A stretch of DNA of 64,000 nt from Winogradskyella sp. GTDB lineage: Bacteria > Bacteroidota > Bacteroidia > Flavobacteriales > Flavobacteriaceae. Made by a program: the position numbers and the translations under genes. The number at the start of each line of letters is the position of its first letter. The stretch's first letter is position 1. The stretch covers positions 1 to 64,000 of the forward strand of contig JASBSA010000099.1 in the NCBI GenBank assembly GCA_030149175.1. The letters are read 5' to 3'. Below are positions 37,352 through 45,413 of the stretch, in pieces. The notes beneath the pieces were generated by a model. The model did not search any database. It was not told the DNA's origin and was given only the letters and a program-made list of their open reading frames with translations.

Positions 37352-38446
37352 TTAAACAAATCTACCTATATAAATTTTCTGTAAATGGGTTGATAACTTT
37401 ATAATATCTGACAATACTCCCCTTGCTGTGACTGCTTTACCAGCACCAGACCCTTGTATGACCAAAGGCTGCACTTTGTAAGCATCAGTATAAATTTCAA
37501 ACAAATTATCCGTTCCTTTTAACTGGCCTAAAGGAGACGCTTTGGGCTCTGTAACTAACTTAACCTCGAGCGAACCGTCAACCACATTCAATAAGCCTAC
37601 ATAACGCAATACAGTTTCGTTTTTAAGTCTAGATTTAAGAGCTCCAAAAACACCATTTAGCTGCTGCACTTGTAGGTTAAATTGCTGTTGTGTTATGTTT
37701 CCGTTACGCTGTTTTGGTACTAAAGATTCAATTTTCACATCGCTCAATTCCGCTTCAATACCAAGTTCTCTAGCTAATATCAATAGTTTTCGTGCCACAT
37801 CTTTTCCGGATAAATCGTCTCTAGGATCTGGCTCTGTTAATCCTTGATCAACCGCATTATTCAGTACCTGATGAAATGGCAACTCTCCTTCTGAAAACTG
37901 ATTGAATATATAACTCAATGAGCCCGAAAACACTCCTTTTATTTTTGTTATTTGCTCTCCAGCTTGGTGTAAGCTCTTAACCGTTTCTATAATTGGTAAC
38001 CCAGCACCCACATTGGTCTCGTAGAGAAATTCTTTGTTGTTTGTTTTTAAAATTGTCCTTAATCGTTTGTAAAAGTCATAGTCTAAGGTGTTCGCCACCT
38101 TATTGGCAGAAACAATGTGAAATCCGTTTTCAATTAATGTTTCGTAATGCGCCACAAATTCGGAGCTAGCTGTCACATCAATAGCAATGGCATGTTCTAC
38201 ATTTAAGGCTTTAAAATGATAGATTATATCTTCAAAAGTGTAGGGTTCTGAAAACTTTTCGAAATCCACTTTCCAGTTAATTTCGTTATCATCAGCAAAA
38301 AAAGCCAAAGTAGAATTTGCAATCACAGGAATTTTAATTGCTATGTGCTGAGTTTTTAAAAGTTCAGATTTAATCTTTTGTATTTGATTGATTAATGTAG
38401 AGCCTACATTACCAATTCCGAATATAGCTAGATGTATGGTCGTCAT
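37352..38446 (-). CDS. hom: Homoserine dehydrogenase
   Basis: IFGIGNVGSTLINQ, SANKVANT, NVGAGLPIIETVKSL, EPDPRDDLSGKDVARKLLIL. Confidence 0.88.
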   Translation of the reverse strand: MTTIHLAIFGIGNVGSTLINQIQKIKSELLKTQHIAIKIPVIANSTLAFFADDNEINWKVDFEKFSEPYTFEDIIYHFKALNVEHAIAIDVTASSEFVAHYETLIENGFHIVSANKVANTLDYDFYKRLRTILKTNNKEFLYETNVGAGLPIIETVKSLHQAGEQITKIKGVFSGSLSYIFNQFSEGELPFHQVLNNAVDQGLTEPDPRDDLSGKDVARKLLILARELGIEAELSDVKIESLVPKQRNGNITQQQFNLQVQQLNGVFGALKSRLKNETVLRYVGLLNVVDGSLEVKLVTEPKASPLGQLKGTDNLFEIYTDAYKVQPLVIQGSGAGKAVTARGVLSDIIKLSTHLQKIYIGRFV

Positions 38447-39425
38447 AGTGTTCTTGTTTTAGGCTAAAAACTGGTTTTAATAACTTCGTGAGTTGTTGAT
38501 GCTCTATTAAAAAAGCATCATGCCCATCGCTAGATTTTAGCTCTCCAATGGTAACATTTTCCTTTACGGATTTTAACTCTACAAAGGTGTTCCAATTTTC
38601 TTCTGATTTAAACAGTAAATCTGAATTAATGGTGATGATGTGAATATGGGATGTGATTTGTCTTGCCACTTCTGTAAATGAACCTCTTCCTTTTGTAATA
38701 TCAATGGTTTTCAAAATTTGATTCATCATTTTATAAGCAGACAACTGAAACCCGTTTTCAAGCTTTTCGCCATGGTGTGCCAACCACGCTTCTATTTTAA
38801 AAGCATCCTTTCCTTGCTTTTCTCTTTTGAATTTGGCAGCAAACGACTCTGGTGTTCTGTAAAAGGTCATGGCATGCATTCTAGCATCAAGTAGTGGTCG
38901 GGAAGAATAGTTGAGTATTTCATCTTGAATGTAACAATTGCCAATTACCCAATCTGTAGATTTCCAATCTGTTGCAATTGGCACCACATATTCCGCTAGG
39001 TTTGGTCGTAGAGCGGCCAACTCCCAAGTAACACCACCACCAACCGAAGCACCTATAATTGCATACAAACTATGAATCCGTAACCTATTTAAACCCTCTG
39101 AAAAAATACGAGCGATATCTCTAGCAGTAAAATCCTTATAATCATCTACAAATAATTCTTCAATACCACCATAACCATTCCCTGGGCAATTAAAGGCCAA
39201 TACAGCATAAACATCTGTATCTATAACCTTGCCTTTACCTACAACATCATTCCACCAACCTTGTTTTCCAGTAACACAAGAATTACCAGTTAATGCATGG
39301 TTAATCAATATAACTGGGCTTTTACCTATAGGTTGTCCAAAATTTTGATAGGACAATCTTAGGTTTAACTTCTTGCCATTGCATAATTCAAAATAATCGA
39401 GTTCTATATATTTAAGAGCGTTCAT
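38409..39425 (-). CDS. metX: Homoserine O-acetyltransferase (alpha/beta hydrolase)
   Basis: LINHALTGNS, NCPGNGYGG, IIGASVGGGVTWELA, SSDGHDAFLIEH. Confidence 0.9.
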   Translation of the reverse strand: MNALKYIELDYFELCNGKKLNLRLSYQNFGQPIGKSPVILINHALTGNSCVTGKQGWWNDVVGKGKVIDTDVYAVLAFNCPGNGYGGIEELFVDDYKDFTARDIARIFSEGLNRLRIHSLYAIIGASVGGGVTWELAALRPNLAEYVVPIATDWKSTDWVIGNCYIQDEILNYSSRPLLDARMHAMTFYRTPESFAAKFKREKQGKDAFKIEAWLAHHGEKLENGFQLSAYKMMNQILKTIDITKGRGSFTEVARQITSHIHIITINSDLLFKSEENWNTFVELKSVKENVTIGELKSSDGHDAFLIEHQQLTKLLKPVFSLKQEHYDDHTSSYIRNW

Positions 39426-39465
39426 TAAGTATGAATTTTAACTTAGTTTACGATACCTCAGATCA

Positions 39466-39498
39466 GACCGAGCGAAAAAAGTTCGCTCAGTCCAATTT
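39466..39498. repeat. Hairpin between metY and metX
   Basis: GACCGAGCGAA-aaaag-TTCGCTCAGTC followed by caattttt on the plus strand. Confidence 0.6.
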
Positions 39499-39514
39499 TT
39501 GCAACACTAACAGA

Positions 39515-40807
39515 TTAAACTAATTGGGATTTGTTAACGCGATTAAAAGCCTCTTTAAGATCGGATTTTAAATCTTCAATGTTTTCTATACCCACGGACA
39601 GACGTATCAAATCCTTGGTTACACCTGTACTCTCTTGGGCATCATCACTTAATTGCTGATGTGTTGTACTGGCCGGATGAATGATTAAAGACTTTGTGTC
39701 ACCAATGTTGGCCAGTAATGAGAATAATTGGGTTTTATCTGCTATGACTTTTGCGGCTTCATATCCACCGTCTACTCCAAATGTTACAATTCCGCTTTGT
39801 CCCTTTGGTAAATATTTTTTGGCTAAATCATAGTATTTACTCGACTCTAAACCAGGATAATTCACCCAAGTTACCTCTGGTTGTTCTTGTAACCACTTGG
39901 CAAGTTCTAAGGCATTTTCGCTATGCTTTTTTATACGTAACTCTAAGGTCTCCAAACCTTGAATGATTTGAAAGGCATTAAACGGGCTTAATGCTCCACC
40001 ATAATCCCTCAACCCTTCAATTCTCACTTTAGCAATAAATGCAGCAGCTTCTAATGCTTCACTATATACCAAACCGTGGTAACCTGGAGAAGGCTCTGTA
40101 AATTCTGGGAATTTTCCATTGCTCCAATCAAAGGTTCCTGCATCAATAATTGCACCTCCCAACGCAGTTCCATTCCCATTAATATACTTTGTTAGAGAAT
40201 GGATTACAATATTTGCGCCATATTCAATTGGATTCAACAAATAAGGTGTGGCTACGGTATTATCTACAATTAATGGCACTTTAAAAGCGTTAGCTTCTTT
40301 AGAAATGGCTTCGATATCCAAAACGTCAAGCTTTGGATTTCCTAAAGATTCTATGAAAAATGCTCTAGTATTTTCTTGAGTAGCTTTTTGGAAATTCTCT
40401 GGATTAGAAGGATCCACAAAAGTTGTTGCAATACCATGTCTTGGTAATGTTACGCTCAATAGATTATAAGTGCCACCGTACAAGCTATTAGAGGCTACAA
40501 TGTGATCCCCTGCTTTTAACAAAGTAAGCAATGTTGTTGAGATGGCAGATGTACCAGAGGCTGTTACTACTGCTGCTAAACCTCCTTCTAAATCTGCTAA
40601 ACGTTGCTCTAAAATATCGTTTGTAGGATTGTTGATTCTGGTATATATATTACCAGTCTCGGTAAGGGCAAAAAGGTTTGCGGCATGATCTGAATCGTTG
40701 AAAACATAAGCTGTTGATTGGTAAATTGGCACCGCTCTTGTTCCACCATTACTATTTACATCATGACCTGCGTGCAACGCTTTTGTTGCAAATTTTTGTG
40801 TACTCAT
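39515..40807 (-). CDS. metY: O-acetylhomoserine aminocarboxypropyltransferase
   Basis: TKALHAGHD, VPIYQSTAYVF, IVDNTVATPYLLNPIEYGANIVIHSLTKYINGNG. Confidence 0.94.
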   Translation of the reverse strand: MSTQKFATKALHAGHDVNSNGGTRAVPIYQSTAYVFNDSDHAANLFALTETGNIYTRINNPTNDILEQRLADLEGGLAAVVTASGTSAISTTLLTLLKAGDHIVASNSLYGGTYNLLSVTLPRHGIATTFVDPSNPENFQKATQENTRAFFIESLGNPKLDVLDIEAISKEANAFKVPLIVDNTVATPYLLNPIEYGANIVIHSLTKYINGNGTALGGAIIDAGTFDWSNGKFPEFTEPSPGYHGLVYSEALEAAAFIAKVRIEGLRDYGGALSPFNAFQIIQGLETLELRIKKHSENALELAKWLQEQPEVTWVNYPGLESSKYYDLAKKYLPKGQSGIVTFGVDGGYEAAKVIADKTQLFSLLANIGDTKSLIIHPASTTHQQLSDDAQESTGVTKDLIRLSVGIENIEDLKSDLKEAFNRVNKSQLV

Positions 40808-41093
40808 TTTTCTAAGTTTTTGAGTTAATAATGAGTGCTATTTGCAGAACAAGATTAATGGAGTAAAAAGCATCTTTTTCGCTAATACTTCAAAATAAAA
40901 ATTGACCGTAGCCAAGGCTATGCTAAATTTTTATTTCTCGTCTAATCAAAAAATCTATCTGTTTCTCTATCATTAATCTCATTCAACAAATAGCACGATT
41001 AAACCAAAAGCCAAATAAACTTCTTAACGAAGCGTACTTAATAGAAAAATGTTATAAAGAAAATGCTAATCACAAATGGGTAATTAGTCTTGA

Positions 41094-41214
41094 GTTATCT
41101 ATCCGAACTGACAAGAAATGACTTGCACATTCAAGTAGAATTTAGCACCTTCTTAGTAAGTCTAAGGGTTGCTAAGGCTTCAAAGGGTCTATTCCCTCCA
41201 CCTTTCTTGATAAC
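41094..41214 (-). ncRNA. SAM-I (S-box) riboswitch upstream of metY-metX-hom
   Basis: Minus strand GTTATCAAGAAAGGTGGAGGGAATAGACCCTTTGAAGCCTTAGCAACCC...AAGGTGCTAAATTCTAC...CGGATAGATAAC; P1 GTTATC/GATAAC. Confidence 0.95.
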
Positions 41215-41469
41215 ATTTCAATAAGTGTTTTGAACTTTATGAGTACAAATATTGCAACACAAAAATTTAAATTCAAAATTATTTTAAGGATTTTTTTATA
41301 GTTTAACACATAAACAGGTCTGCAAAAGTTCCTAAAACCCTTGTGTTTTCTATTGTTAAGCAAAAATTTTATAATGTAAAACATAATACCTGCAACTCAT
41401 TTTATGATTTCATTATCATTTGAAGATGCTCAATCTTAAATTTAATCTTTATTTTTGCCAAGATTTATA

Positions 41470-41543
41470 AAGAGGAAAAATTTGTCTGATTGCAACCTCT
41501 TAAAACTGAAACTATTTCGGTTTGAATAAAAATGCTAAAGCAG
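41470..41543 (+). ncRNA. SAM-II-like pseudoknot riboswitch candidate (long-loop variant) upstream of metK
   Basis: P1 AAGAGG/CCTCTT; loop ends CTGATTGCAA; inserted 9-bp hairpin AAACTGAAA-CTA-TTTCGGTTT; 3' AATGCTAAAGCAG with CTG/CAG pseudoknot. Confidence 0.75.
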
Positions 41544-41607
41544 TTAGTTTTTCAACTTCTCTAGCAGCTACGCAATCTCAATTTTTTAATAAACAAAAAT
41601 AGGATTT

Positions 41608-42861
41608 ATGCCATATTTATTTACTTCAGAAAGTGTTTCGGAAGGACATCCAGATAAAGTTGCTGATCAAATTAGTGATGCATTAATTGATAATTTTTTA
41701 GCTTTTGACCCAGAGTCTAAAGTAGCTTGCGAAACCCTTGTAACAACTGGCCAAGTAGTATTAGCTGGCGAAGTAAAATCTAATACTTATCTAGACGTAC
41801 AGCAAATAGCTAGAGACACCATTAATAAAATCGGTTACACCAAAGGCGAGTACATGTTTGATGGCAACTCGTGTGGAGTCATTTCTGCCATACATGAACA
41901 GTCAGAAGATATTAATCGAGGTGTAGATAGAGCAACCAAAGAAGAGCAAGGTGCTGGCGACCAAGGGATGATGTTTGGCTATGCTACCAACGAGACCAAT
42001 AATTATATGCCTTTGGCATTGGATATTTCGCATCTTATACTTAAAGAACTGGCTGCATTACGTCGCGAAAATAAAGACATCACCTACTTAAGGCCAGATT
42101 CTAAAAGTCAGGTAACTATTGAATATAGTGATGACAATACACCGCAACGTATTGATGCCATTGTTATTTCTACACAACATGACGATTTTGATACAGATGA
42201 CGTTATGTTAGACAAAATTAGAAAAGACATGGTAAACATCTTGATACCTCGTGTAGTAGCCAAAGTACCAGACCATATAAAACCTCTATTTACAGATGAT
42301 ATTAAATATCACATCAATCCAACAGGAAAATTTGTAATAGGTGGACCTCATGGTGATACTGGCTTAACAGGCAGAAAAATAATCGTTGATACTTATGGCG
42401 GAAAAGGCGCACATGGTGGAGGAGCATTTTCTGGAAAAGATCCAAGTAAAGTAGACAGAAGTGCAGCTTATGCAACAAGACATATCGCCAAAAATTTAGT
42501 CGCTGCTGGTGTTTGTGATGAAGTGTTGGTACAAGTGTCTTATGCTATTGGTGTTGTAGAACCTATGGGAATTTTTATTGATACTTATGGTACATGTCCT
42601 TTTAACCTTACAGATGGTGAAATAGCAGAAAAAGTTTCTGAAATTTTTGACATGCGACCAGCTGCCATTGAGGAACGTCTTAAACTACGTCAACCAATGT
42701 ATAGCGAAACAGCAGCCTATGGCCATATGGGAAGACACAATGAGATTGTTACTAAAACTTTTGACCAACCTAACGGTGAATCTAAAACTCTAGAAGTTGA
42801 ACTATTCACATGGGAAAAATTAGATTATGTGGATAAAGTAAAAGCAGCCTTTGGATTGTAA
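41608..42861 (+). CDS. metK: S-adenosylmethionine synthetase
   Basis: [54 protein letters not shown]. Confidence 0.97.
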
Positions 42862-43012: not shown

Positions 43013-44836
43013 ATGAAAAGAATTAAAAATTTCCCAAATCTTATTTTAATGCTTTTATTATCATTAATTATGGTAACCTCTTGCCAAAAAGATGATAGCC
43101 CTTCTGGAAATAACGACCCACAAGAAAATATACCTGATAACTTTTCTGAATATTTTGGCAATGAAATCTCTCGCGACTTTTTAGGTACCGTTATCGACAA
43201 AAACCATAATCCCATTGAAGGCGCAACCATTACTATCGGTAGCGAAACCGCAACAACAGATAGTAATGGTGTTTTTATGATTAACGGAGCTACAGTTAAG
43301 CAACGTTTTGGTTATATAAAAGCCGAGAAAGCTGGATACATTCATGCTTCACGTAGTGTTGTGCCTTCTAACGGCACCAACAAAGTGACCATTATGATGT
43401 TAGAAGCTACTGTTGTAGGCTCAGTAACCAGTGGAAGTTCGGGAACCGTAACCGATAACGATGGGAGCTCTGTGAGTTTTGACGGTAATTTTATAAAAGA
43501 AGATGGCACTGCTTATTCTGGATCGGTAGACGTAATCATGCATCACCTTGATCCTGCTGATGTGGATATGCCACTACAAATGCCTGGTATGCTTTATGCC
43601 GAAAATGAAAATGGAGCAGAACGTATGCTTCAAACTTTAGGTATGCTTGCAGTGGAATTACGCGGTTCTGGTGGTGAAGATTTAAATTTAGCAGAAGGTT
43701 CAACTTCTGAAATAAAAATTCCTGTAGATGCTAGTTTAATGAGTATAGCTCCTGCAACCATTCCGCTTTGGTATTTTGATGAAACTACTGGTTATTGGAA
43801 AGAAGAGGGTGAAGCTACGCTTCAAGGCAACATGTATGTTGGTACAGTATCACATTTTAGCTTTTGGAATTGTGATATACCAGCAGAAGCAATTACACTT
43901 TGCGTTACTGCGACAGATGAAGATAATATACCTCTAGCAAATATGTCAGTGTCTATTACTAGCACAACATTTGGAACAACCTATGGCTATACAAACGACA
44001 ATGGCGAAGTCTGTGGCTATGTGCCAAGCAATGAAAGTTTAGTGCTTAATGTTTACAGTTATAACTTTTGTGATGATGCTTCTTTGTATAACGAAACCAT
44101 AGGACCCTTTAACTCAGATTCTAGTATTACAGTTGTAGTACCAGATAACCCTGATGTCATTCAGGAAACAGTGGTAGGTACATTTAACACATGTAACGGT
44201 CAGCCTGTTTCGGATGGTTATGTCCAACTGAGCTACGGCAACCAAACCTTTATCGATGCTGTAACTAATGGTGATTTTGAAATTAATCTTTTGAGATGTA
44301 CTGAAAGCAATACATTTGGTATTGAAGCTAGCGACTATGTCAACCTACAAGTCACTGATAGCATTAGTTACACCTTTACGACACCTTTAACAAATATAGG
44401 AACTATAAGTGCATGTAATGCTGTAACTGAGTTTATAGAATACACAATTGATGATGGAGAAAGCGTATTTATTTTCGAAAACATTTCTGCTAACTTCTAT
44501 GCAGAGAGTCCGAATTATCCAGGACCAACCATCGATATTTTTGCATCAAGTAACAATCAGGAAAACTGCTATTATATGTTTGGAGTCCTAAATGATCCTG
44601 ACTATTTAGGTACTTATGATAGTTTTGCTTTTGACGGCACAGTTTCCGATGATACAGGCTTCTTTATTGGAGAATGTCTAAACGTTGCTCCAGAAAACAA
44701 CAATATTACTTACAATCTTACCTCATTAGGGGACGTTAGCGAGTATATAGATATCAATTTTAATGGTTCTTATGAAGATTACCAAGGTAATCCGCACACC
44801 ATAACTGGAGTAGTGCATGTATTGAGAGACAATTAA
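43013..44836 (+). CDS. Lipoprotein with carboxypeptidase-regulatory-like domains
   Basis: Lipobox MVTSCQKDD; FLGTVIDKNHNPIEGATITIGSETATTDSNGVFMINGA. Confidence 0.8.
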   Translation: MKRIKNFPNLILMLLLSLIMVTSCQKDDSPSGNNDPQENIPDNFSEYFGNEISRDFLGTVIDKNHNPIEGATITIGSETATTDSNGVFMINGATVKQRFGYIKAEKAGYIHASRSVVPSNGTNKVTIMMLEATVVGSVTSGSSGTVTDNDGSSVSFDGNFIKEDGTAYSGSVDVIMHHLDPADVDMPLQMPGMLYAENENGAERMLQTLGMLAVELRGSGGEDLNLAEGSTSEIKIPVDASLMSIAPATIPLWYFDETTGYWKEEGEATLQGNMYVGTVSHFSFWNCDIPAEAITLCVTATDEDNIPLANMSVSITSTTFGTTYGYTNDNGEVCGYVPSNESLVLNVYSYNFCDDASLYNETIGPFNSDSSITVVVPDNPDVIQETVVGTFNTCNGQPVSDGYVQLSYGNQTFIDAVTNGDFEINLLRCTESNTFGIEASDYVNLQVTDSISYTFTTPLTNIGTISACNAVTEFIEYTIDDGESVFIFENISANFYAESPNYPGPTIDIFASSNNQENCYYMFGVLNDPDYLGTYDSFAFDGTVSDDTGFFIGECLNVAPENNNITYNLTSLGDVSEYIDINFNGSYEDYQGNPHTITGVVHVLRDN

Positions 44837-44960: not shown

Positions 44961-45413
44961 ATGGGTAATCAAAAAAACATAAAACTTATAATTCCAACAA
45001 TATTGGTGGTTTGTATTTGTATACTTTTAATATCCTCTAGCGATGCCTTTAAAGACAAACCAGACAAAAAGAACACAAAACCTTTATCAGAATATCTTGG
45101 TGAACGTGTAGACATTAGTCTAAAAGGATCTGTTGTTAATGATAATAATGAACCTTTAGACAGTGTTACCATTACCGTTGGAAATCAGACTGTGCAAACC
45201 GATACTCAAGGTCAATTTGAAATAAAAAATGCTGCGGCTTACGAGAATTTTTTACCCGTAGAAGCGCAACGAAAAGGGTATCAAAACATGGTCATAAACC
45301 TAAATCCTAAGGATAAAAAAAACGATATAGATATTACTCTAAAAAAAGAAGGAACCACATGTCTATTCTGGTTTTGCAAGCATAATCACAACCTTCCTGC
45401 TACTATAAATTAG
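44961..45413 (+). CDS. Short carboxypeptidase-regulatory-like protein, paralog of the upstream lipoprotein N-terminus
   Basis: LSEYLGERVDISLKGSVVNDNNEPLDSVTITVGNQTVQTDTQGQFEI. Confidence 0.7.
   Translation: MGNQKNIKLIIPTILVVCICILLISSSDAFKDKPDKKNTKPLSEYLGERVDISLKGSVVNDNNEPLDSVTITVGNQTVQTDTQGQFEIKNAAAYENFLPVEAQRKGYQNMVINLNPKDKKNDIDITLKKEGTTCLFWFCKHNHNLPATIN

Follow-up and report, generated by a model that had tools for sequence, protein, structure and literature searches.

Several described SAM-sensing RNAs resemble the element studied here. The compact SAM-II aptamer of alphaproteobacteria, for instance that of S. meliloti metA and metZ, shares with it the H-type pseudoknot, an AUUGCAA before the 3' strand of P1 and a GCUAAA 3' segment (PMC9373788). 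In S. meliloti the metA pseudoknot is predicted to interfere with the SD/ribosome site, while at metZ SAM drives a terminator (PMC9373788); in the family described below the 3' strand mostly lies 57-98 nt from the AUG and a terminator was not found. The closest relative is the 'SAM-II long loops' motif published in 2010 and labelled 'Bacteroidetes, marine' (Weinberg et al. 2010, PMC2864571). RF01726 and our element have in common the pseudoknot aptamer, the conserved GAUUGCAA and AAUGCUAAAG, optional extra hairpins, the Bacteroidetes host and the metK context; at the aptamer level we see no difference, and the downstream strand described below was not found in the accessible part of PMC2864571. 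SAM-V is a related SAM pseudoknot, for which our region has no listed match at an E threshold as permissive as 10. SAM-I (RF00162) binds the same ligand by a different fold; its copy here shares the intergenic region but is encoded on the opposite strand, and the genes behind it are metY-metX-hom instead of metK. In the literature searched, which comprised few subscription journals, we found no account of how RF01726 controls its gene and no earlier description of the leader strand or of an intergenic region with two SAM riboswitch classes. Here we describe the metK leader of Winogradskyella sp. (Flavobacteriaceae) and its relatives.

The aptamer and its distribution

The window is the complete stretch analysed, 64,000 nt of contig JASBSA010000099.1 (assembly GCA_030149175.1), and its features are collected in Table 1. 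Screening by means of cmscan with Rfam release 15 gave an RF01726 (SAM-II, long loop) match that covers model positions 1-60, full length and untruncated, with an E-value of 4e-9 for the whole window and 3e-11 for 501 bases. The element is an above-threshold member of RF01726, well beyond chance; the aptamer belongs to an already known family, of which the window copy is a further member. The initial annotation had proposed a SAM-II-like aptamer, maybe the long-loop Bacteroidetes/marine variant, and had placed it correctly to one base, P1 beginning at 41470. The parts it had read from the sequence are all present: P1 around a loop ending CTGATTGCAA, CTG opposite CAG, the SAM-II 3' segment AATGCTAAAGCAG ending at 41543, the hairpin AAACTGAAA-CTA-TTTCGGTTT, which includes one G.U pair, and metK as the gene downstream. 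Of the checks it had suggested, comparison with the long-loop covariance model and a survey of covariation in P1 and CTG/CAG both bore it out.

Table 1. Features of the metK leader and its surroundings in the window (positions within the 64,000 nt)
Feature	Position	Strand	Evidence
Bacteroidetes-type -7 promoter box TATTTTTG, consensus TAnnTTTG	41450..41457	+	placed likewise in relatives
SAM-II long-loop aptamer, RF01726	41466..41548	+	cmscan 60.3 bits, gathering 44
P1 helix AAGAGG/CCTCTT with 20-nt loop	41470..41501 (41470-41475 with 41496-41501)	+	sequence, covariation
Pseudoknot 5' strand CTG, partner CAG 41541-41543	41486..41488	+	covariation
Inserted 9-bp hairpin between P1 and 3' strand	41503..41523	+	fold z -4.8
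Possible competing hairpin TGCTA/TAGCA (+ AGTT/AACT)	41533..41566	+	MFE fold
3' strand GCTAAAGCAG, conserved SAM-II 3' segment and pseudoknot 3' strand	41534..41543	+	sequence, RF01726
Switching strand GCAATCTCAATTTTTT (putative)	41572..41587	+	co-evolution of leader region across relatives
AGGATTT and metK start codon ATG (41608-41610)	41601..41610	+	sequence
metK, methionine adenosyltransferase	41608..42861	+	TIGR01034, E 1e-152
SAM-I (S box) riboswitch, same intergenic region, divergent	41092..41216	-	RF00162, 74.6 bits, gathering 44.4
metY	39515-40807	-	TIGR01326, passes curated cut-off
metX-like	38409-39425	-	TIGR01392 match, below curated cut-off
Homoserine dehydrogenase (hom)	37352-38446	-	NF006959 match, below curated cut-off

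RF01726 was identified in 53 of 60 relatives and, nearly always before metK, in 143 of 151 Flavobacteriaceae genomes sampled at one per genus. It occurs in 101 of 148 genomes sampled across the order Flavobacteriales and is rare elsewhere in the phylum (26 of 198 genomes, most of the 26 being Flavobacteriaceae). Among the 221 copies that were parsed, 216 lie upstream of metK. Compensatory changes are seen in both P1 and the pseudoknot: 307 leaders contain the P1 variants GAGG/CCTC (228), GTGG/CCAC (49) and AAGG/CCTT (4), and the pseudoknot variants CTG/CAG (277) and CCG/CGG (3). In 208 of 216 relatives a -7 box precedes P1 by 4-23 nt (mode 15), and from the position of this box the transcript likely starts at the 5' edge of the aptamer. 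The distance from the pseudoknot 3' strand to the metK start is 65 nt in the window.

The inserted hairpin of the window folds better than its shuffles (z-score in Table 1). In 89 of the 216 metK leaders the gap between P1 and the 3' strand measures at least 20 nt and is predicted to hold one (68), two (14) or three (7) hairpins, with very different sequences among leaders and a mean fold z of -3.5; most of the remaining leaders are without any insert. Because it lies in a loop position away from the conserved bases, the simplest reading of the insert is that of an optional, spacer-like module that would leave the binding pocket untouched. It is a common module of RF01726, so the initial annotation's other option, a further variant of the family, is unneeded.

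A few copies deviate in structure or context. One same-class relative of the metK SAM-II (L329) has its extra sequence not after P1 but within the P1 loop, where it separates UUUG from GAUUGC. In another (L034), at a contig end, an N run joins two partial copies of the metK leader, which looks like an assembly join. A metY-like gene preceded by SAM-II (L064) was found in a genome (G063) without a detected SAM-I riboswitch, which suggests that one SAM riboswitch class was replaced by another. Two small-genome flavobacteria have second SAM-II copies before queF-II (L220, L222), which encodes preQ1 synthase (TIGR03139; by profile scan in L220 and judged by eye in its close relative L222) and is an unexpected target of a SAM switch. 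A further second copy (L221) precedes a gene for a DUF6580 membrane protein and is possibly a clue to the substrate of that protein.

Co-evolution of a leader strand with the aptamer

A strand located 45-17 nt before the metK AUG complements the 5' half of the aptamer. In the window GCAATC (41572-41577) is complementary to GATTGC (41488-41493) in the aptamer, and CAATTTTTT is largely complementary to the A-rich loop preceding GATTGC. The leader strands differ by genus, GTCAAATC, GCAATC or CAAATCCTTCC, for example, being the complements of aptamer GATTTGAC, GATTGC or GGAAGGATTTG, respectively, and aptamer-complementary strands are also present at the SAM-II copies before metY (L064) and queF-II (L220, L222). 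The duplex energy of the aptamer 5' half with the leader had a mean z of -2.4, as compared with +0.4 for early coding sequence, and uninterrupted complements of at least 8 nt occurred in 107 of 216 leaders as compared with 11 of 216 when the leader was reversed. In one relative (L126) the complement measures 13 bp and reaches beyond the most conserved aptamer bases. The window's own aptamer/leader duplex is A/U rich and, with -11.0 kcal/mol and a z of +0.3, no better than shuffles; its helix is weak, and the case for the window rests on its relatives.

Since conserved complements could be inherited without meaning, each sequence was matched, once only, with its closest relative according to metK DNA, and the pairing of aptamer and leader was compared between own and swapped combinations. 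Sequences containing N (e.g. L034) were excluded. Own pairing was better than swapped over 97 independent sister pairs (mean -2.98 kcal/mol, p 1.7e-10), with 71 negative differences, i.e. own better, and 15 positive ones. The reversed-leader control over the same 97 pairs was null (p 0.97), as was coding sequence as pairing partner of the aptamer, and the signal is limited to about -40..-7 relative to the AUG. Around the UUUG/CAAA anchor several Watson-Crick types are found at one position (A-U 74, U-A 7, G-C 5), and pairing around the anchor amounts to 55% in register versus 34-42% when slid. The signal was recovered in 37 held-out leaders from families other than Flavobacteriaceae (p 1.7e-3), where the reversed control kept a slight trend (p 0.058). 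It was also recovered in a set of 35 named Winogradskyella and relatives (p 2.0e-3) that partly overlaps the genomes used earlier; within the genus of the window alone it is modest (p 0.027). RNAalifold applied to 41 leaders with GCAATC yielded no informative consensus beyond P1. The strand some 45-17 nt upstream of the AUG and the aptamer 5' half co-evolve.

The start region and the mode of control

We consider it likely that the element is a SAM-II long-loop switch at the 5' end of the metK mRNA, which exerts SAM feedback via an aptamer-complementary ON strand. Inferred here are the binding of the ligand, which state is ON and which OFF, and the masking step. At low SAM the strand would pair with the aptamer 5' half, in the window by means of GAUUGC/GCAAUC and flanking A/U pairs, such that the binding pocket would be absent, the start codon open and metK translated. 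Upon SAM binding P1 and the CUG/CAG pseudoknot would close and free the leader strand, after which this strand or its neighbour may mask the ribosome-binding region and start codon, and metK translation would fall.

The start region provides several indications. The own aptamer 5' half pairs worse than a swapped one with the start region (-10..+15), by +1.2 kcal/mol (p 4e-8): the aptamer avoids the start region, likely to prevent misfolding, as would follow if the start has to be accessible in the open state. When the aptamer closes, the predicted exposure of the start codon drops by over 0.1 in 65 leaders, and 18 leaders show a rise. In the predicted ligand-bound fold of the window AAAAAT..GGATT and the start codon are available for pairing with GCAATCT..ATTTTT, but the predicted exposure is unchanged between states (0.59 versus 0.61). 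Closed-state hairpins over the start are predicted as UUGCUUU/AAAGCAA just before the AUG in five leaders (L057, L058, L060, L061, L069) and as GGCUAUCUUC with GAAGAUGGCU in two (L106, L014). When the switching strand was tested for co-evolution with the start region, p-values ranged from 7e-4 to 2e-2 in narrow windows and reached 0.15 in a broad one; a mimicry test for resemblance of the start region to the aptamer was negative. Masking of the start region in the ligand-bound state would be clade-dependent, and is weakly supported across all leaders.

The competing hairpin of Table 1 would tentatively trap the pseudoknot 3' strand without ligand; the arms of this anti-pseudoknot hairpin, GCUA/UAGC, gave no significant co-evolution (p 0.13). 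An upstream ORF (conserved AATG, AUG CUA AAG CAG...) was considered and rejected, since its stops and length vary and relatives such as L002 (AATTGCTAAAG) lack its AUG, as read by eye from the sequences.

The aptamer could also act alone, its SAM-dependent pseudoknot closure affecting the ribosome directly while the downstream complementarity has no role. The prediction for S. meliloti metA (PMC9373788) is a precedent for this, and a metH copy (L146) whose AUG follows the start of the aptamer 3' strand by 9 nt is consistent with it, as a closed aptamer could there mask the start codon directly. Before metK, however, the 3' strand is with its 57-98 nt mostly too distant from the AUG to mask it directly, and co-evolution links the leader strand to the aptamer, which makes this explanation unlikely.

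Transcription attenuation, in which closure of the aptamer by SAM would let an intrinsic terminator arise in the leader, has its counterpart in the SAM-II of alpha- and betaproteobacteria, often linked to terminators (PMC2258182). A G+C-rich hairpin followed by a U-run, as expected for intrinsic termination, was found between aptamer and start codon nowhere in the window and in only 1 of 216 leaders. Attenuation by an intrinsic terminator is therefore improbable, and we favour a model in which SAM represses translation and the aptamer/leader helix serves as the ON arm.

The reverse assignment, in which the strand is an OFF arm and metK translation goes up once bound SAM has freed the leader, would fit the location of the strand, since an initiating ribosome could reach -45..-17. 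It runs contrary to the feedback logic expected for metK, to the predicted start-codon exposure, which more often falls than rises on aptamer closure, and to the avoidance of the start region by the aptamer, and we regard it as very improbable. Finally, chance resemblance in A/U-rich DNA, for which speaks the very A/U-rich leader of the window, is already refuted by the 60.3-bit covariance match, the conservation in 143 of 151 genera and the compensatory changes, and has a negligible probability.

The divergent SAM-I unit and significance

The intergenic region upstream of metK contains a second SAM riboswitch, which the initial annotation had missed, as it had the downstream switching strand. 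This SAM-I riboswitch precedes metY-metX-hom (37352..40807, minus strand) and lies 250 nt from the SAM-II aptamer. SAM-I and SAM-II are both present in 116 of 151 flavobacterial genera, and a divergent pair within about 400 nt was counted in at least 17 of the 151 genera and at least 12 genomes of the window's genus, these being lower bounds counted by hand from the listed matches. As of 2007 no species with both SAM-I and SAM-II was known (PMC2258182). On the other side of metK, two plus-strand ORFs (43013-44836 and 44961-45413) encode CarboxypepD_reg-like domains with similar N-terminal regions, perhaps the result of a duplication.

Shine-Dalgarno pairing is generally regarded as little used in Bacteroidetes, and the textbook model of SD masking is therefore not simply transferable to these leaders. 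The interest of the locus resides in the co-evolving leader strand and in the two-class intergenic region. On balance we favour the view that the flavobacterial long-loop SAM-II uses an expression platform not described before, in which a strand shortly ahead of the start codon, evolving as a complement of the aptamer 5' half, pairs either with the aptamer or with the ribosome-binding region, and that the switch often stands back to back with SAM-I. If true, one intergenic region would sense SAM via two unrelated, oppositely facing RNAs in many genomes. The co-evolving strand provides a concrete two-state model for the near-universal metK switch of the Flavobacteriaceae, and points to a mechanism in bacteria for which none had been described.
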